IMG/VR virus record: IMGVR_UViG_3300019884_000010 | Location: 1 to 32,508 of that record | Direction: 5' to 3' (one strand) | Length of the DNA: 32,508 nt | DNA from: a virus | Shown: positions 7,326-29,874 of the stretch, in pieces | Numbering within the stretch: position 1 is the first letter of the stretch | Layout: the number at the start of each line of letters is the position of its first letter | Position numbers and translations under genes: made by a program | Notes under the pieces: generated by a model | What the model was told of the DNA's origin: nothing | Database searches by the model: none | Seen by the model: the letters and a program-made list of their open reading frames with translations, nothing else

Positions 7326-8039
7326 CTAGGCGGTTTTGGGCGGCGGCTCCTCGTCGGGGGGCGGCGCCGGCTCGGTGTCCGAAACGGCGACCCCCTCGCC
7401 CTGGTCGTCGTCGGGCTCGACGTGCCGCGGCGCCGCAACCCCCGCGGCGTCCATCTCCCAAAGCGAGCGGGCGACGAGGTCGAGGGTCCGCTTGCGGGTG
7501 TCCTCGTCGATATCGGGGGGCGCGAGCTCGAGCGGCAAGCCTTGCTCGAATTCGTCAAAGTAACGCACCATGCCGCGCGCGTAGACTTCGGCCGGATCGG
7601 TGTAATACCCGGCCGCCTTGAGCTGCTCGGCGAATTGAAAGGGGCGCCCGGCCTCGAGCGCCGCCCATGCCGCGGCATACCGCTTCCTACCCTTGAGGAA
7701 GGCGAGGTGATCGACGACGCCTTCCCGTAACGTCCGGAATGCACGGAACCGGGTGGCCGGGTGCGGCGGATCGAACCACACATCCTTGCCGTTGATCTTT
7801 TCGCGGCACCGGAAAAACGTAAAGTCGCGGCCGTCGTCGAGGCTACTCTTGACGTTACCGATATTGAAGTTGTGGACATACTTCCAACGCCCCGTTTCGT
7901 GCGCGCTTTGGGCCATCAGAGTGATGATCGCGGCGCGGGTGGGGGTTACACCGAAGAGCTCTCGCCAAGCCGCCACAAGGGCGCCGGCGAGCTCGGCGGG
8001 GTTGACGGTCGTGATCTCGTGCTCGAGTTGATCGGCCAT
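7326..8039 (-). CDS. Glucosaminidase-like endolysin
   Basis: A 237-residue protein read from ATG at 8039. The segment IITLMAQSAHETGRW followed by NFNIGNVK is characteristic of FlgJ/endo-N-acetylglucosaminidase-type (lysozyme-fold) peptidoglycan hydrolases; Glu48 in HETG is the expected catalytic acid. RFRAFRTLREGVVDHLAFL and AGYYTDP further match this family. The last ~40 residues are an acidic Pro-rich tail. No signal peptide is present, so access to the cell wall would need a holin; a holin candidate lies at 9660-10313. It is the last gene of the minus-strand operon. Confidence 0.85.
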   Translation of the reverse strand: MADQLEHEITTVNPAELAGALVAAWRELFGVTPTRAAIITLMAQSAHETGRWKYVHNFNIGNVKSSLDDGRDFTFFRCREKINGKDVWFDPPHPATRFRAFRTLREGVVDHLAFLKGRKRYAAAWAALEAGRPFQFAEQLKAAGYYTDPAEVYARGMVRYFDEFEQGLPLELAPPDIDEDTRKRTLDLVARSLWEMDAAGVAAPRHVEPDDDQGEGVAVSDTEPAPPPDEEPPPKTA

Positions 8040-17654: not shown

Positions 17655-18193
17655 GGCTTTTTTGCCTCGACGAGCAGTCGCTCAACTTCGGCCTTCAAGT
17701 CGGCATTGGGATCGACCTTCGAAGTCGTCGAGGTTTTCGAGCCCGACGGCGATCCCCCCTTCTTTTTCGGCGGGCGATACTCGACGAATTTGACGGCGAT
17801 GGTCGCGCCGCCCTTGCCGTCATGCTCCATGCCCCCGATCGTCGCCGGGCAAACGGTTTTGATATCGTTCTTCGCGAGATCCGGGTGATAGATCGAAAGA
17901 GCCTTCGGTTTCCCGCTGCTCGGAAGCGCCGAGCGAATGAGAGCGGCGAAGGTTTCCCATTCCGCGAAGTCGTCAACGCCCGCGACGGGATCCTTGACGA
18001 GCGTGAACGTCGTTTGAAATTGCGTGATCGACTCGCCCTTGTAGGTCGTCGACGCGCCGCCGCTCCCGTCGGCTTTTTTGACGTCCCATTCGTGGTTGCG
18101 ATCGTGACCGGAGAGCTTGACGAACCCGGGCGAGCGTTTCCCCGCGAGCACGATCGCGTCGAAGAGCTCGGAGTTATCGACGGGGTTAGGCAT
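17651..18193 (-). CDS. Tail protein between tape measure and hub, possible baseplate adaptor
   Basis: A 180-residue protein with ATG at 18193, overlapping the tape-measure gene by 8 bases. An N-terminal beta domain (GFVKLSGHDRNHEWDVKKADGSG, then TTFTLVKDP) is followed by a KALSIYHPDLAKNDIKT segment and VEYRPPKKKGG. The last ~35 residues are Lys/Ser-rich. Proteins in this position connect tube, tape measure and hub, often carrying a LysM or gp53-like part, but I see no clear LysM motif. Confidence 0.6.
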   Translation of the reverse strand: MPNPVDNSELFDAIVLAGKRSPGFVKLSGHDRNHEWDVKKADGSGGASTTYKGESITQFQTTFTLVKDPVAGVDDFAEWETFAALIRSALPSSGKPKALSIYHPDLAKNDIKTVCPATIGGMEHDGKGGATIAVKFVEYRPPKKKGGSPSGSKTSTTSKVDPNADLKAEVERLLVEAKKP

Positions 18194-20141
18194 GGCCCGG
18201 CACCTCGCCGCCGCCGACGGTAATGCTCGAGCTCTCGAGCCATTGCGTGATCTGCTCGATAAAATCGAGCGCTTGCTCTTTCGCCGTCTCGCCGCCGACG
18301 ACGATCGTACCAATCGAAAGCGAGAGCCCGCCGCCGCCCGCGGCGCCCGGTGCGCCGGCCGCCGGCACGCTCGGCGGCGAAACCATCGCCTCGAGCGCCC
18401 CTTGCGTGTCCGACGCGCCGCCCTCGACGCCTTCGGCGAACCCTTGCGCCGTGTCGCCGCCAAGTCCGGCGAAGACCTTCGAAGGCGATCCCGACATGAG
18501 CAGACGTTTTGCCGCCTTGATACCGCCGGTGATCGTGTCCGAGATGGCGCCGACCACGGCCGCGGCGCCGCCCGTGATCCCGGCGACGAGACCCTTGATC
18601 ATGTCGGAGCCAAGATTTCCCAGCCAAGTGACGGCGCCGCCGAGCCCACCGAAGATCGCTTTCTCGACCTCGACGAATGCGCCGACGAGTTGATAGATCT
18701 TGTTCGCAACGTCGAGCACGATCACGAAGAGGAGCCCGAAGAGACCGATCACGAGACCGAGCGCGACGGCGAGAACTCCGCCGATCACGGCGGCGCCGAG
18801 TAGCAGCGCGCGCCCGAAAAGTTCGATCTCGCCGCGGTAAGGTTTCATCGCGATATAGGCCTTGAGAGCCCAGATCTCGGCATGCAGGAACATGCGCTCG
18901 ATCATCGGGATCACGTCGCCGGCGCCGTCGACGAGCGGCTGAAACATCGTCTCAAAAAGAAACTTCATTGTCTTACCGCTCGCCGTCGTCGAGTCGAAGA
19001 GATCGACGAGCGTCGAGATCCCGCCGAGTAGTTTCTCGATATTGAGCTTGCCGAAGACGCCGCTTATGTTCGTTCCGAATTTGCGCGACTGCACTTCGAG
19101 CGCGAGCATTTGCTTCGCGAAGTCGGGCCCCCATTTGAGCTCGGCGGCGCGGATGGCGGCGGCTTCGAGCTCGTCGGTGAGATCCTTCCCGCGGAGTCCT
19201 GTCTTCGCCAGATCGGCCGCCATGCTCCGAAGCTCGTCGCTCGTTTGCGGCACCATGCTTCCGAGCTTCGTGATCGTCGCCTCGAGCTCGGCGCCGCCTT
19301 GCACGCTCTTCGCGATGCCGGCAGAGAGCAGGCCTTGCGTTCGTCCAGCGTCGGCCAACCCGACGGCCCAGCCTGCGATCGCGATCGTGGCAATCGCCGC
19401 CGCCGAAGCAATGGCCAGAATCGCAACGCCGATCCCGATGTATGGGCCCGCGGATCCCATGGCGGTTCCGAGCTTCTTGAAACCCGTTGCAAAACTGAGA
19501 ACCTTTTGACCCGCAACGCCGGCCGGCCCGCCTAGCTTGCCGAAAGCTTCGGCCATTTCGTTGACCTTGCCGGTACCCTTCGCCGCCGCCGAGACTTTGG
19601 CCATTTGGTCGGCCGCGGTTTTCACGTTGGCGAGCCCTTTCGTGAGACCCGCGTGTTTCGCGCTCGCCTCCTCGGCTTTCGCCTTGACGAGGTCGAGCGC
19701 CGCGGCTTCGCGCTTGAGAGCCATGGCGAGCGCCGAAGCTTTCGACGCGGCGGCGCCTTCCGTGTCGGTGAGCTCGTCGAGCCGCGCGCGAAGTCGCGAC
19801 GCCGCGCCATCGTCGCCCGCGCCGATCGCCTTCGAGAGCTTGCCCTGGAGCTCTTCGCTCTTTTGCCCGAGACGCTCGACCGACTTCGCCGCTTTCTCGG
19901 CGGAGATCTCGGCCTCCCGGTACTTCGTTTCGCTTACGCCGAGCATATCGCCCGAGAGCTTCGCGGCTTCGGCCGCCGCCTCGAGCGCCGACGCCGTCGC
20001 CTTCGTCGCCCGCTCGAGATCTTGCGCCGACGCCCCCGCCTTGACCATCCGATCGCCGAGCGTCGCGAGCGTCGATACGGCGTCCTCGCCGCCCGCGAAT
20101 TTCGCGGCGAGCTCAATTAGAAATTGCGTACCGTCGGCCAT
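18186..20141 (-). CDS. Tape measure protein
   Basis: A 651-residue protein with ATG at 20141, four bases after the end of the frameshifted chaperone frame. Residues ~1-190 are Ala/Glu/Lys-rich coiled coil. Two hydrophobic regions (233-263 and 442-477) are the usual membrane-insertion segments. SGSPSKVFAGLGGDTAQGFAEGV near residue 555 is a conserved tape-measure motif. At ~0.15 nm per residue a tail of roughly 100 nm would result, short for a myovirus. It determines tail length and later helps DNA pass the inner membrane. Confidence 0.9.
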   Translation of the reverse strand: MADGTQFLIELAAKFAGGEDAVSTLATLGDRMVKAGASAQDLERATKATASALEAAAEAAKLSGDMLGVSETKYREAEISAEKAAKSVERLGQKSEELQGKLSKAIGAGDDGAASRLRARLDELTDTEGAAASKASALAMALKREAAALDLVKAKAEEASAKHAGLTKGLANVKTAADQMAKVSAAAKGTGKVNEMAEAFGKLGGPAGVAGQKVLSFATGFKKLGTAMGSAGPYIGIGVAILAIASAAAIATIAIAGWAVGLADAGRTQGLLSAGIAKSVQGGAELEATITKLGSMVPQTSDELRSMAADLAKTGLRGKDLTDELEAAAIRAAELKWGPDFAKQMLALEVQSRKFGTNISGVFGKLNIEKLLGGISTLVDLFDSTTASGKTMKFLFETMFQPLVDGAGDVIPMIERMFLHAEIWALKAYIAMKPYRGEIELFGRALLLGAAVIGGVLAVALGLVIGLFGLLFVIVLDVANKIYQLVGAFVEVEKAIFGGLGGAVTWLGNLGSDMIKGLVAGITGGAAAVVGAISDTITGGIKAAKRLLMSGSPSKVFAGLGGDTAQGFAEGVEGGASDTQGALEAMVSPPSVPAAGAPGAAGGGGLSLSIGTIVVGGETAKEQALDFIEQITQWLESSSITVGGGEVPGHA

Positions 20142-20145
20142 GGTC

Positions 20146-20723
20146 TCACTTCGATTTCAGTGCCCAGCGGACCAGGTTTACAAACTCAGCGAAAACGATT
20201 GCGCCGGCCCTCGCGTTGTCGTCCTCGTCCCCCCGACGCCATGCCATCAAACAGTCGGCGAGCGCGACCGCGCTTTTTTGCGCTTCGGCGACGCGCTCGG
20301 TTAGCCTTTTCCCTCCGCTTCCCCTAGGCGGATCGCCTCCAGGCCGACGTTATCGTGAATCGCCGGCCACTCGGCGCGCATGCGCTCATACACTTCCTTC
20401 TCGGGATAAGCGACACACGTCTCACCGAGCATTTCTTGCGCGGTGCCGATCGCGATACTGTCACCCTTGCTCTTTCGGACCATCTGCCGAAAGCGCTCGA
20501 AGTGCGGTTTACTCGGTGTCTTGACGACGACGACCGTCGGCAAGCCGGCGACGAACGATGGCATCTTGAGAACGTGGACACGGTCGTCGCCGAGCTCTTG
20601 CTCGAGCGCGTCGACGCGAACGAGATCTTTTGCCCATTGCTCGGCGCGCGCTTTCGCGATCGCCGCCTTGCGCTCGGTGCGCCGCGCCTCGATCGCCGTC
20701 ACTTCGTCATGCTCTTCGGTCAT
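20146..20723 (-). CDS. Tail assembly chaperone, -1 frameshift product (GT-type)
   Basis: Slippage by -1 on GGGAAAA (20313-20307, read as G GGA AAA in the zero frame) continues translation from 20307 in the frame ending at TGA 20148-20146. This adds 53 residues to the first 139 (192 in total): a helical, charged extension with two hydrophobic patches (SAVALADCLMAW and AIVFAEFVNLVRWAL). It is open all the way to four bases before the tape-measure ATG, as in the lambda G-GT pair. Without the shift the 154 bases between the two genes would be unused. Frameshift efficiency cannot be judged from sequence. Confidence 0.75.
20260..20313 (-). promoter_or_regulatory. Programmed -1 frameshift signal
   Basis: The slippery heptamer GGGAAAA (20313-20307) is in the correct X XXY YYZ register. 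Eight bases further, GAGCGCG (20298-20292) pairs with CGCGCTC (20266-20260) in a 7-pair stem. Its 25-base loop holds a second hairpin, GCGC-A6-GCGC (20283-20270). Distance and stability fit a stimulatory structure. The zero-frame TAA lies inside the spacer. Confidence 0.75.
20301..20723 (-). CDS. Tail assembly chaperone, zero-frame product (G-type)
   Basis: A 140-residue protein with ATG at 20723 behind GAAAGGG. It starts with an acidic/basic helical region (residues ~1-45) and continues with a compact alpha/beta part (LPTVVVVKTPSKPHFERFRQMV, IGTAQEMLGETCVAYPEKEVYE). The gene lies between the tube and tape-measure genes, where tail assembly chaperones are found in lambda, P2 and Mu-like phages. 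It ends in GGGAAAAGGCTAA, whose first seven bases are a slippery sequence. It should bind the tape measure while the tube forms and is not expected in the virion. Confidence 0.8.
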   Translation of the reverse strand: MTEEHDEVTAIEARRTERKAAIAKARAEQWAKDLVRVDALEQELGDDRVHVLKMPSFVAGLPTVVVVKTPSKPHFERFRQMVRKSKGDSIAIGTAQEMLGETCVAYPEKEVYERMRAEWPAIHDNVGLEAIRLGEAEGKG

Positions 20724-20747: not shown

Positions 20748-21212
20748 TCACAAGAGCGTGATGCCATCCTCTTCGATCAACATCGGGTTGATCGGCACTT
20801 CGATCTTTTCCGCGTCGGCCCCCTCCGCCATGTCCGCGCTGCGCCCCATGACGCGGCACCCGACGATCTTGACATTGAAGATATCGACCGTGCCCGGCGG
20901 AGTGTGCTGGATGATGATGTCGAAGCCGACGAGCGAGATCTTTGCGTTCATCGCGGCGAGCGCCGTGCGAAAAAGACCCCACCCGCTACGGTAAAACGTG
21001 AGCGTCGCGTCGCAATCGTATTGCCCGGTAGTGCGCTTCGACTTGCGCCCGCCGTTCGTGCCGCGCACGAGGCCGACTTCGACTTTATCCGACCACTTGA
21101 TCGCGGCGATGTCGGGCGTAACGATCGTTTGCCCCCCGTAGATAGGAAAGCTCGCTCGGACGTCGGCCCATGAGGGCTCGACTTCGTTCAACGTGGGATA
21201 TTCATTCGCCAT
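20748..21212 (-). CDS. Tail tube protein
   Basis: A 154-residue protein with ATG at 21212 behind GAGGTG. The sequence alternates beta strands (VEVGLVRGT, ATLTFYRSGWGLF, ISLVGFDIIIQH, VDIFNVKIVGCRVMG) and closes with KIEVPINPMLIEEDGITLL, a layout seen in tail tubes of contractile-tailed phages. It lies immediately after the sheath and before the chaperone, the usual order. It polymerises into the inner DNA channel. Confidence 0.8.
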   Translation of the reverse strand: MANEYPTLNEVEPSWADVRASFPIYGGQTIVTPDIAAIKWSDKVEVGLVRGTNGGRKSKRTTGQYDCDATLTFYRSGWGLFRTALAAMNAKISLVGFDIIIQHTPPGTVDIFNVKIVGCRVMGRSADMAEGADAEKIEVPINPMLIEEDGITLL

Positions 21213-21221
21213 GGTCGCACC

Positions 21222-23180
21222 TCAAGAGCCGGCGGTTTGAATCCGGACGCGCGTACGGATCTTTTCGAGGGTCGCGCCTAGGCGAAGGTCGAGCACCCCC
21301 GTTAGCTCGGCTTCCGGCACATTGAGAACGTCCGACGTGCTCGCTTTCCACGCGGCGGCGCTCGCGCGGGGGCCCTCGCTCTTACGTTGCAAGAGCGCAA
21401 TCGCGAGGGCACTGTTGACGCGATCCTCGAGCACCCGAAGACTCGCCTTCGTCGCCGTGCCGTTGTCGTTGAGCTCGAGCACTTGACCGATCGCGTTCTC
21501 GGTCTCGGCTTGCGTCACGCTCGAAGCGACGTTCGCGACCGCCATGTTATGCGTGCGCGAAAGAAGCGACCCCTCTTGCGCTCGCGTGAGCGAGAGAGCG
21601 ATGAACGCGCCCGCCGGCCCATTCGAAAAACTCCGAAAGCACGTGAATCGGGCGAGCAATAGCCCTCCGTCGCTTCGCTCGTCGTGCTCGACGGTGTTGC
21701 CCTCGTCGTCCTCGAGCGACCACCCGTCGCAAGGGCCGTCTTCTTTGCGCCACGTGGGGATCTGGACGTCGTGTTGATACTCGCGGATCGACGCCGCCCA
21801 TTGAACCGGACGGCGGAAGAGCCAACCGGTGATCGGCGAGCGCTTGTAACCTCGGCCGGCGCCGAGATCGATCCGGATCTTGTCGTCGATCGCGCCGAAG
21901 CCACTATCGACGAGGGCGACCCATTGGCTATCGTTCTCGCCGGCCGAGATCGTGACGTTGTGCGAGCCGATCTCCTCGGCCGCGAGGTCGGTCGCGGCGA
22001 AGGTAAGCACCGTCGCCGAGAGCGCCGCGATCGCGCCGCTTACGTTATTCGAAGCCGTGCCGGTGACGGTGACGACGTCGCCAACGGCGAGGCCGTCGGC
22101 AAGCCATGATCCGCCCGAGCGGGTGATCGTATCCCCCGTGCCGCCGACTTCGGCGAAGATGAGCCCGTGCGAACCGACGACCGTGCAACTTGAAACCGGG
22201 CCCTCGACGGCGAGGTCGGTCGCGTCAAGCGTGATCACCAAAGCCGAGAGCGTCGCGATCCGACCGGTGACGTTATTGGACACCGACCCGGCGACGGTGA
22301 CGACCATTCCGACCGCGAAGCCGTCGGCGATCCACGATCCGGCCGAACGCGTGATCGTGTCGCCCGTGCCGCCGATCTCGGCAAACGTGAGCGTCGGCGA
22401 TCCGACCATGTTGACGCGGATCTTCGACAACGCCCCTTGAGTTTTCCGATCGCGAACTTGCGCCCGAGCGTAAACAAACCGCTCATTCTCGGTTTCGTAC
22501 CCGTTGACTTCGGCGACGACGTCTGTCGCATCTTGAGCGACGAGCAGATCGCCGACGACGAGCCACGATCGCGACTGCTTATTTTGCGCGGCGAGCGCGT
22601 CGCGCGCGTCGGCCAGGCCGGCTTGATCCCATCGCGGCGCCGTCGTCGCCCAACGAAGAGCGACGTTGCCGGCGACGAGCGTGCCGGCGGCGAAGCTCAG
22701 TGTTTGCCCGACGTATGGAAGCGCGTAGCTCGCCGCCAAGCCGAGCCGAACACGCTTCGTCGTGCGCCCGCCGTCGAGCGAGAGATCAAAAACGATCTGG
22801 TCGGTGCCGATCGTTCCGCCGGTGACGACGGTTAGGATTCCGTCGACCTGGTCGAGGACACCGTTGGCGCCGGCCGCGACGGAGATCACGCTTGTGCCGG
22901 TGTTGCCCGACGAGTCGAGCCGGCCGATCGTTCCGACAGTTACCTTAGGGAGTCCGACGAAGATCACCGGCTTGCCGGTCTCTTCGAAGTGCATCGCGCA
23001 ATAATCGACGCCCGGTGAATAGCCGTGCGTTTCGAGCAACGCCTTCGTCGAAGAGAAGACGCGGGGGGTAATGTCGTCGTCGTGCTCGACGCACGCCAAT
23101 ACCGTTAGGATGTCGGTGCCGCCGGCGAGTGCGCCGGCCTCGTCGTCGATCGTTACCGTAGCTTCGGGCAAAGTGGCCAT
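21222..23180 (-). CDS. Tail sheath protein with duplicated insert
   Basis: A 652-residue protein with ATG at 23180. The N-terminal domain (DILTVLACVEHDDDITPRVFSS, then YCAMHFEETGKPVIFVGLP) and the C-terminal part (GFGAIDDKIRIDLG, NGPAGAFIALSL, KASLRVLEDRVNSALA) fit phage sheath proteins, longer than the ~400-500 residues common for small myoviruses. The excess comes from two tandem 76-residue-spaced copies (FAEIGGTGDTITRS from residue 266 and FAEVGGTGDTITRS from 342). These beta-rich units probably project from the sheath surface. The contractile sheath identifies the virion as a myovirus. Confidence 0.85.
   Translation of the reverse strand: MATLPEATVTIDDEAGALAGGTDILTVLACVEHDDDITPRVFSSTKALLETHGYSPGVDYCAMHFEETGKPVIFVGLPKVTVGTIGRLDSSGNTGTSVISVAAGANGVLDQVDGILTVVTGGTIGTDQIVFDLSLDGGRTTKRVRLGLAASYALPYVGQTLSFAAGTLVAGNVALRWATTAPRWDQAGLADARDALAAQNKQSRSWLVVGDLLVAQDATDVVAEVNGYETENERFVYARAQVRDRKTQGALSKIRVNMVGSPTLTFAEIGGTGDTITRSAGSWIADGFAVGMVVTVAGSVSNNVTGRIATLSALVITLDATDLAVEGPVSSCTVVGSHGLIFAEVGGTGDTITRSGGSWLADGLAVGDVVTVTGTASNNVSGAIAALSATVLTFAATDLAAEEIGSHNVTISAGENDSQWVALVDSGFGAIDDKIRIDLGAGRGYKRSPITGWLFRRPVQWAASIREYQHDVQIPTWRKEDGPCDGWSLEDDEGNTVEHDERSDGGLLLARFTCFRSFSNGPAGAFIALSLTRAQEGSLLSRTHNMAVANVASSVTQAETENAIGQVLELNDNGTATKASLRVLEDRVNSALAIALLQRKSEGPRASAAAWKASTSDVLNVPEAELTGVLDLRLGATLEKIRTRVRIQTAGS
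21935..22391 (-). repeat. Tandem duplication inside the sheath gene
   Basis: Two in-frame copies, about 22391-22164 and 22163-21935, are offset by 228 bases (76 codons). They encode the same order of motifs: FAEIGGTGDTITRS and FAEVGGTGDTITRS, then SWIADG/SWLADG, SNNV and DLA. The copies differ at many codons, so the duplication is not recent or it was acquired already diverged. Confidence 0.8.
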
Positions 23181-28224: not shown

Positions 28225-28314
28225 TAGGGTCAACTTGGCGCATGCAATTAACTATTAGCAACCTGTTTTTAATTGACCACTGGATGTAATCAATCGACGG
28301 ACGCGGAGGGCGAC
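28225..28314. promoter_or_regulatory. AT-rich divergent promoter region
   Basis: This 90-base gap separates the plus-strand portal from the minus-strand protease and contains the most AT-rich patch of the window (about 28241-28293). It includes an inverted pair CAATTA (28245-28250) / TAATTG (28270-28275). On the minus strand TTGATT (28293-28288) and TAAAAA (28271-28266) are 16 bases apart, a weak sigma70-like pair aimed at the protease gene. GGAGGG at 28305-28310 is the portal ribosome site. Promoters for both genes are expected here. Confidence 0.45.
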
Positions 28315-29874
28315 ATGGGTGCACCGTCAAAGCGAGCGAAGAAAGTGCGGCCGGCGAGCGACTTCGATCTCATTCGTCTCGCGGCCGAAGTGCGCTCCCC
28401 TAGACTGTCCAGTGGCTACTACTCTTGGGACCTTGACGCGATCCGCGCCGCCCGCGACGCGCAAATGGTCGGACGGTTTCAGCTAGCCGCCCGCCTCGTC
28501 GAATCGACGAGAACCGATTACGCCATCTTCGCCTCGTTCCTAAATCGCCTCGCGCCTCAACGCGGACTACCGATCAAGCTCGTGCCCCCGAACGACTCCG
28601 CTCGAGCGGCTCGCGTCGTCGGCGAGGCGGAAGCGCTCTTCGGCGCTCGCGGCGTCGGCATTCACCCCGACACGCTCACCGACATCGATGGGACGTTGGC
28701 AAACCACGGCGTCGCGTTCGGCGTCAACGTCGTGACTCCGCGCAACGACGGCTCGCGCGTCGACTTCGAGCTCAAGGCATGGCCGATCGAGTTCGTCCGA
28801 TGGGACGCACTCAAGCGTTCGTTCTTTACGCAAACCGCCGACGGCTACACCGAGGAGCCGATCTGCCACGGCGACGGGCGTTGGACGATCTTTCAGGAAC
28901 ACGAGGTCGAGCCGTGGAAGTACGGCGCGATTCTCGCCATTGCAATGCTTTGGGGCGATCACGCGTTCGGCGTCCGAGACCGGTCGCACGCTGGCACGAC
29001 GCACGGTAACGCGAAGGTCGTCGGCACCATGCCGCAAGGGGTCGCGTTGCAAGATGCCGCGGGAGCGCTCACGGCGGAGGGCGCGGCGTTTCTCGAGCTC
29101 TTGCGCGCGATCGCGAGCGTCGACTCACCGGTAGGGATCAAGCCGTTCGGCTCGGTCGTCGACTACATTACGAACGATTCGCGCGCGTGGGAGATCTTCA
29201 AAGAGATCATCTCGAGCGGCGAGCGGGCGGCGGATCGCGTCTACCTCGGTCACGACGTGAGCGCCGCGGCGGCGGGCGGCGACGCCGTCGGGTACCTTTT
29301 CGGCGTCCGAAACGACATCGTCGAGGGCTCGCTCAAGGCGATCGAGCGCGGCATTCGAACGGGCGTGATCGAACCATGGGCGGCGATCAACTTCGGCGAC
29401 TCGTCGCTAGCGCCCGACCGCGTCTACCTCATGCCCGACGCCGACGAGGACGCGCGGCGCAAGTCACTCGCCGACCGAACGAAAGCGTTCTACGACGCCG
29501 TCGAGTCGGCGAAAAAGAACAGTTTCGACGTGACGGAGGAATACTTGAGAAAGCTCGCCGACGATTACGGGGTGATCAAACCGACGCTTCCGGCCGCGAG
29601 CGCGCGCGCGCCGAGCATCACACTCGCGCCGACGGATATCGCCAAGGTCGTGCGCGTCAACGAAGCGCGGGCGAGCGCGAACCTTCCGCCGCTCGACAAG
29701 GACGGCGCCCTCGATCCCGACGGCCTTCTCACGGTCGCCGAATTCGCCGCGAAGAAAGAGGCCGGCGCTAAAGCTTCGATCCCCCCGCCCAACGGGGAAG
29801 CGACGCCACAAGGTCCGACGCCGCCCGCGAAGGGGGCGAACGGAGCGCCGCCGCCGCGGCCGTCAATCCAGTAA
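28315..29874 (+). CDS. Portal protein (DUF935 / Mu gp29-like), on the opposite strand to its neighbours
   Basis: A 519-residue protein. ATG at 28315 with GCGGAGGG before it is preferred to the TTG at 28273. FASFLNRLAPQRGLPIKLVPP, GVAFGVNVVTP, ELKAWPIEFVRWD, HEVEPWKYGAILAIAMLW, SGERAADRVYLG and KAIERGIRTGVIEPWAAINFG follow the order of DUF935 portal proteins, the 12-mer through which DNA enters the head. The final 40 residues are Pro-rich. Its 3' end overlaps the terminase 3' end by 107 bases antisense. All other virion genes here are on the minus strand. Confidence 0.85.
   Translation: MGAPSKRAKKVRPASDFDLIRLAAEVRSPRLSSGYYSWDLDAIRAARDAQMVGRFQLAARLVESTRTDYAIFASFLNRLAPQRGLPIKLVPPNDSARAARVVGEAEALFGARGVGIHPDTLTDIDGTLANHGVAFGVNVVTPRNDGSRVDFELKAWPIEFVRWDALKRSFFTQTADGYTEEPICHGDGRWTIFQEHEVEPWKYGAILAIAMLWGDHAFGVRDRSHAGTTHGNAKVVGTMPQGVALQDAAGALTAEGAAFLELLRAIASVDSPVGIKPFGSVVDYITNDSRAWEIFKEIISSGERAADRVYLGHDVSAAAAGGDAVGYLFGVRNDIVEGSLKAIERGIRTGVIEPWAAINFGDSSLAPDRVYLMPDADEDARRKSLADRTKAFYDAVESAKKNSFDVTEEYLRKLADDYGVIKPTLPAASARAPSITLAPTDIAKVVRVNEARASANLPPLDKDGALDPDGLLTVAEFAAKKEAGAKASIPPPNGEATPQGPTPPAKGANGAPPPRPSIQ

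Follow-up and report, generated by a model that had tools for sequence, protein, structure and literature searches.

What, if anything, is encoded in the roughly 160 nt that lie between a small tail gene and the tape measure gene in this viral genome? Ordinary gene calling would leave this 'empty' gap unexplained and would miss the fusion product that we predict to span it. The window, by which we mean the whole stretch of 32,508 nt that was analysed (IMG/VR virus record IMGVR_UViG_3300019884_000010, positions 1-32,508), had been interpreted in a sequence-only reading as carrying a complete module for programmed -1 frameshifting at this point. We read the junction directly on the minus strand and compared it with related loci. 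We put the probability at about 95% that the 140-aa gene upstream of the gap is the tail chaperone of a Mu-like phage, predicted to give a short product and a -1-fused product through slippage at G_GGA_AAA. What sequence analysis contributes to this reading is the gene order, a phased heptamer, a conserved -1 reading, purifying selection, a stem that covaries in the near clade, and a chaperone fold. The features of the locus are the following:

21222..23180, minus strand: tail sheath protein, 652 aa (position; low-confidence model with weak sheath fold matches)
20748..21212, minus strand: tail tube protein, 154 aa (weak PHROG tail-protein match, E 0.004; position; conservation in relatives)
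20301..20723, minus strand: zero-frame tail assembly chaperone (G-like), 140 aa, from ATG at 20723 to TAA at 20303-20301 (sequence and AlphaFold2 model)
20321..20325, minus strand: possible Shine-Dalgarno-like stimulator AGGGG, 5´ of the heptamer (anti-SD pairing energy; tentative)
20307..20313, minus strand: slippery heptamer G_GGA_AAA (GGGAAAA) (sequence; conservation among relatives)
20301..20303, minus strand: zero-frame stop TAA, 3 nt 3´ of the heptamer
20146..20306, minus strand: -1 frame extension (T-like), 53 codons past the heptamer, stop TGA at 20148-20146 (conservation; pN/pS 0.53)
20292..20299, minus strand: downstream stem, 5´ arm CGAGCGCG (folding and covariation test)
20270..20283, minus strand: nested hairpin GCGC-AAAAAA-GCGC (folding of the window sequence)
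20259..20266, minus strand: downstream stem, 3´ arm CGCGCTCG (folding and covariation test)
18186..20141, minus strand: tape measure protein, 651 aa (PHROG tape-measure families, E down to 2.4e-10)

The genes run sheath, tube, chaperone, tape measure on the minus strand, and the place of the chaperone between tube and tape measure is kept in the relatives whose contig covers the region. Among the head genes of the window are matches to Mu-like models of the protease and the major head protein. Baseplate matches lie further downstream and, taken with the sheath call, fit a contractile tail. The sheath-position protein (21222-23180, minus strand) is well conserved across the relatives recovered; neither PHROG nor Pfam gave it a match at E ≤ 0.001, and its model (pLDDT 64) gave no Foldseek match at E ≤ 0.001, tail sheaths being frequent among the weak Foldseek matches. 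Elsewhere in the late region, a portal-like gene on the plus strand (28273-29874; PHROG portal, E 0.0015) lies between terminase and protease, opposite in strand to its neighbours, and overlaps the 3´ end of the terminase gene tail-to-tail by 107 nt. It is likewise inverted in 10 of 13 compared relatives (L004-L007, L011, L014-L016, L026, L028) and co-oriented with the other late genes in L012, L013 and L017; no long, near-perfect inverted repeat was seen flanking it.

The AlphaFold2 model of the 140-aa protein (pLDDT 94.4) has its best solved fold matches in the HK97 gp13 tail assembly chaperone, RBSTP2171 (3fgx) and YqbN (3klu). These fold matches are of moderate strength, with a Foldseek E of 5e-3 and Z scores of 8.8 (RBSTP2171) and 5.6 (HK97 gp13). 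All three proteins share the fold of the window protein at 10-21% identity in the alignments, and the window protein differs from them in an extra long N-terminal helix (residues 3-44). Sequence profiles place the chaperone in no named family, the best PHROG tail-chaperone match having E 0.088, and a PDB sequence search with the chaperone profile returned only a weak match to 3fgx (E 0.012). By its modelled fold and by its position between tube and tape measure, the 140-aa protein is a tail assembly chaperone, as the sequence-only reading had named it.

Neither the chaperone nor the sheath found a match by tblastn among 50,697 phage records, and no relative came up when viral contigs were scanned with the chaperone as a single protein. 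Relatives were recovered through the sheath as query instead: viral contigs were searched with the sheath and the tape measure and after these with an alignment of sheaths, and genome contigs were searched once. The dereplicated set comprises 39 loci that cover the junction, the window counted in, drawn from many metagenomes and from three MAG contigs. The MAG contigs (L026, L027 and L028, from GTDB genomes) are labelled Thermoplasmata, Alphaproteobacteria and Polyangiaceae, and may be mis-binned. Two further loci, L057 and L058, have extensions below the profile cut-off and stand outside the 39.

The chaperone gene ends in GAG GGA AAA GGC TAA, and a slip at G_GGA_AAA enters the -1 frame, in which the first shifted codon, AGG, begins at 20307, the last base of the heptamer. 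Direct reading bears out that this frame is open for 53 codons and stops just short of the tape measure gene, 4 nt separating the TGA of the extension (20148-20146) from the ATG at 20141. Relative to the chaperone, the extension lies in the -1 frame in 39/39 loci, as judged by the extension profile and, for the window, by direct reading. The same stretch is open in that frame in all 39, and in the other two frames in 4/39 and 8/39. Within the window's 12-member near clade, pN/pS of the extension is 0.53 in the -1 frame versus 1.50 and 1.22 in the others, pN is below pS in 66/66 pairs, and the third codon positions of the -1 frame vary most (0.57 versus 0.32 and 0.33). In this clade, then, purifying selection acts on the extension as read in the -1 frame. 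Lack of conservation of the -1 frame or of the heptamer had been set beforehand as what would refute frameshifting, and the proposal survives this test. The arrangement might also be read as one gene broken into two frames by an indel or an assembly error, since frame breaks in contigs from metagenomes are sometimes artefacts. Yet the two frames stand in the same relation, with the same junction, across the 39 dereplicated loci, which come from many metagenomes and from three MAG contigs; a broken single gene is refuted by this conservation, and we assign it practically zero probability.

The codon read after the slip is AGG in the window and AGA or AGG in most relatives. AGG makes up 1.6% of the window's arginine codons and no AGA was seen there; the retention of such rare codons at this position suggests that nucleotides are held as well as amino acids.

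The heptamer itself is phased as had been claimed, positions 20313-20307 reading G_GGA_AAA on the minus strand. A canonical slippery heptamer is found 0-3 nt before the chaperone stop in 36/39 loci, where GGGAAAA is either kept (29 loci) or replaced by AAAAAAA (2), AAAAAAC (2), AAAAAAG (1), TTTAAAA (1) or GGGAAAC (1). The background of in-frame canonical heptamers is 0.00076 per codon (13 in 17,110 codons of the family's chaperone and tape-measure genes). Judged from these sequences, slipperiness is kept at the site while the letters of the heptamer change, and such an interchange of canonical heptamers at one site argues for selection for slipping and is hard to explain otherwise. The three loci that lack a canonical heptamer carry G_GAA_AAA (GGAAAAA; L004 and L006) or GCA_AAA_AGC (GCAAAAAGC; L056). 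The form in L004 and L006 is probably derived because their near relative L019 has GGGAAAA. Each of the three retains at least four A, and putative slipping on AAAA alone could serve there.

Two other routes to a longer or second product bear on this site. The first is transcriptional slippage on the A run in place of ribosomal frameshifting. Long A runs are present in a few relatives (eight A in L026 and L066). The window and most relatives, however, have just four A after GGG, a run too short for the RNA polymerase slippage so far known, and the heptamer keeps its phase as well as a stem at ribosomal distance, all of which makes this origin extremely unlikely. The second treats the -1 frame as a small gene in its own right, with its own start reached by re-initiation or coupled translation. 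L057 and L058 have GGGAAAA with TGA directly after it and an open -1 frame; their junction reads GGA AAA TGA, and near position 7908 an ATG overlaps the stop (GGGAAAATGA), so that coupled initiation is possible in these two loci besides frameshifting. In the window, by contrast, no ATG, GTG or TTG stands in the -1 frame before codon 19 or so of the extension (TTG-ATG), and conservation begins at the heptamer itself (GKRL). A separate gene would further leave unexplained why canonical heptamers stand at the end of the zero frame and why GGGAAAA, AAAAAAA, AAAAAAC and TTTAAAA interchange there, and we consider it highly improbable.

For the stimulators of slipping, the picture differs between the near clade and the family. 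The stem GAGCGCG/CGCGCTC comprises 7 bp after an 8-nt spacer, as had been described, or 8 bp after 7 nt if the C-G pair below is counted; the 41-nt element of the window has a minimum free energy of -23.1 kcal/mol. The window's hairpin alone is not exceptional compared with shuffled sequences (z -1.1), and the support for the stem thus derives from covariation in relatives and not from stability in the window alone. In the 10-member near clade pairing in the stem reaches 92%, and 3/9 pairs have changed in both arms. The percentage leans towards the stem because the near-clade sets were picked for their likeness to the window in sequence, and the stem was itself taken from the window; more weight belongs to the covariation counts. 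In the same clade, 0/500 shuffles reach the stem's pairing percentage, covariation score or number of double-changed cells, and versions of the stem slid along the alignment are far lower in pairing and covariation, none reaching the real stem. Only the closing stem is kept in the near clade: the nested A6-loop hairpin of the sequence-only reading is present in the window and not conserved as such in relatives.

Distant members have other stems at the same spacing, and some have none. This is probably why RNAalifold predicted no common structure from a 16-sequence alignment. A closing stem of at least 5 bp starting 5-9 nt past the heptamer is found in 30/39 loci versus 76/156 control positions, and over the whole set of 39 the next 60 nt of RNA fold more stably than control stretches taken from the same gene (mean z -1.26 versus -0.29, p 1e-4). 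A downstream stimulator is therefore supported close to the window and only in part across the family. Upstream of the heptamer, the anti-SD pairing energy dips strongly throughout the family. The dip is largely explained by Glu and Gly codons (p 0.02 versus synonymous resampling), and a Shine-Dalgarno-like stimulator is left tentative because the dip is mostly amino acid composition.

The most distinctive feature of the locus is the position of the zero-frame stop, which is 3 nt past the heptamer in 35/39 loci and 0 nt in one, the three loci without a canonical heptamer giving no reference point. PRFect was trained on a SEA-PHAGES set in which the stop lies 26 nt away on average (PMC10885494). 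One possibility is that a stop 0-3 nt past the heptamer is part of the signal, such that a ribosome terminating at the foot of the stem, whether about to terminate or just terminated, sets the rate at which the next one slips. The stop is close wherever a canonical heptamer is present; we nevertheless regard this role as doubtful. If true, it would amount to termination-coupled -1 frameshifting, distinct from the ordinary lambda form.

That slipping happens, how often it does so, and how the two products share the work are what we infer. Most ribosomes would read GAG GGA AAA GGC TAA, stop, and release the short chaperone. A minority would slow down at the stem 7-8 nt ahead of them, perhaps with help from the Shine-Dalgarno-like purine tract upstream, and would move back by one base while the GGA and AAA tRNAs sit on G_GGA_AAA, reading 53 further codons to give the fusion. 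If lambda gpG/gpGT is a guide, many short copies may coat the tape measure protein, the extension on the rare long copies may recruit tail tube subunits, and both forms would depart before the tail is completed.

Frameshifted tail chaperones have long been known from lambda, P2 and Mu, and the function of lambda G and T has been reviewed (PMC5009743). The G/GT-type organization proposed for the window, a standard arrangement for tailed phages, is supported by the comparison. In lambda as in the window, the chaperone gene lies between the genes for the major tail protein and the tape measure, and the extension ends beside the tape-measure start. The two differ in the length of the extension (lambda T is annotated as 144 aa versus 53 aa here), in the distance of the zero-frame stop from the heptamer (15 nt in lambda versus 3 nt), and in the tail, which is contractile in the window phage, unlike that of lambda.

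Mu has the same order of sheath, tube, chaperone and tape measure, its frameshift has been verified, and Mu gp41 (144 aa) is similar in size to the window chaperone (140 aa). A profile comparison of the window chaperone with Mu gp41 found nothing; a distant relation between them may exist. The analysis adds a frameshifted tail-chaperone family from uncultured phages that was missed by a protein search of 50,697 phage records, and the slippery heptamers that replace one another at its one fixed site form a natural series. What appears to be new is the chaperone family, the fixed position of the stop, and a predicted -1 shift in a Mu-like phage. The frameshift of Mu is -2 (PMC5009743; also the Mu annotation), whereas that of the window, and of all 39 loci, would be -1 rather than -2 (+1), which suggests that Mu-like phages use -1 as well as -2 shifts to make their tail chaperones.
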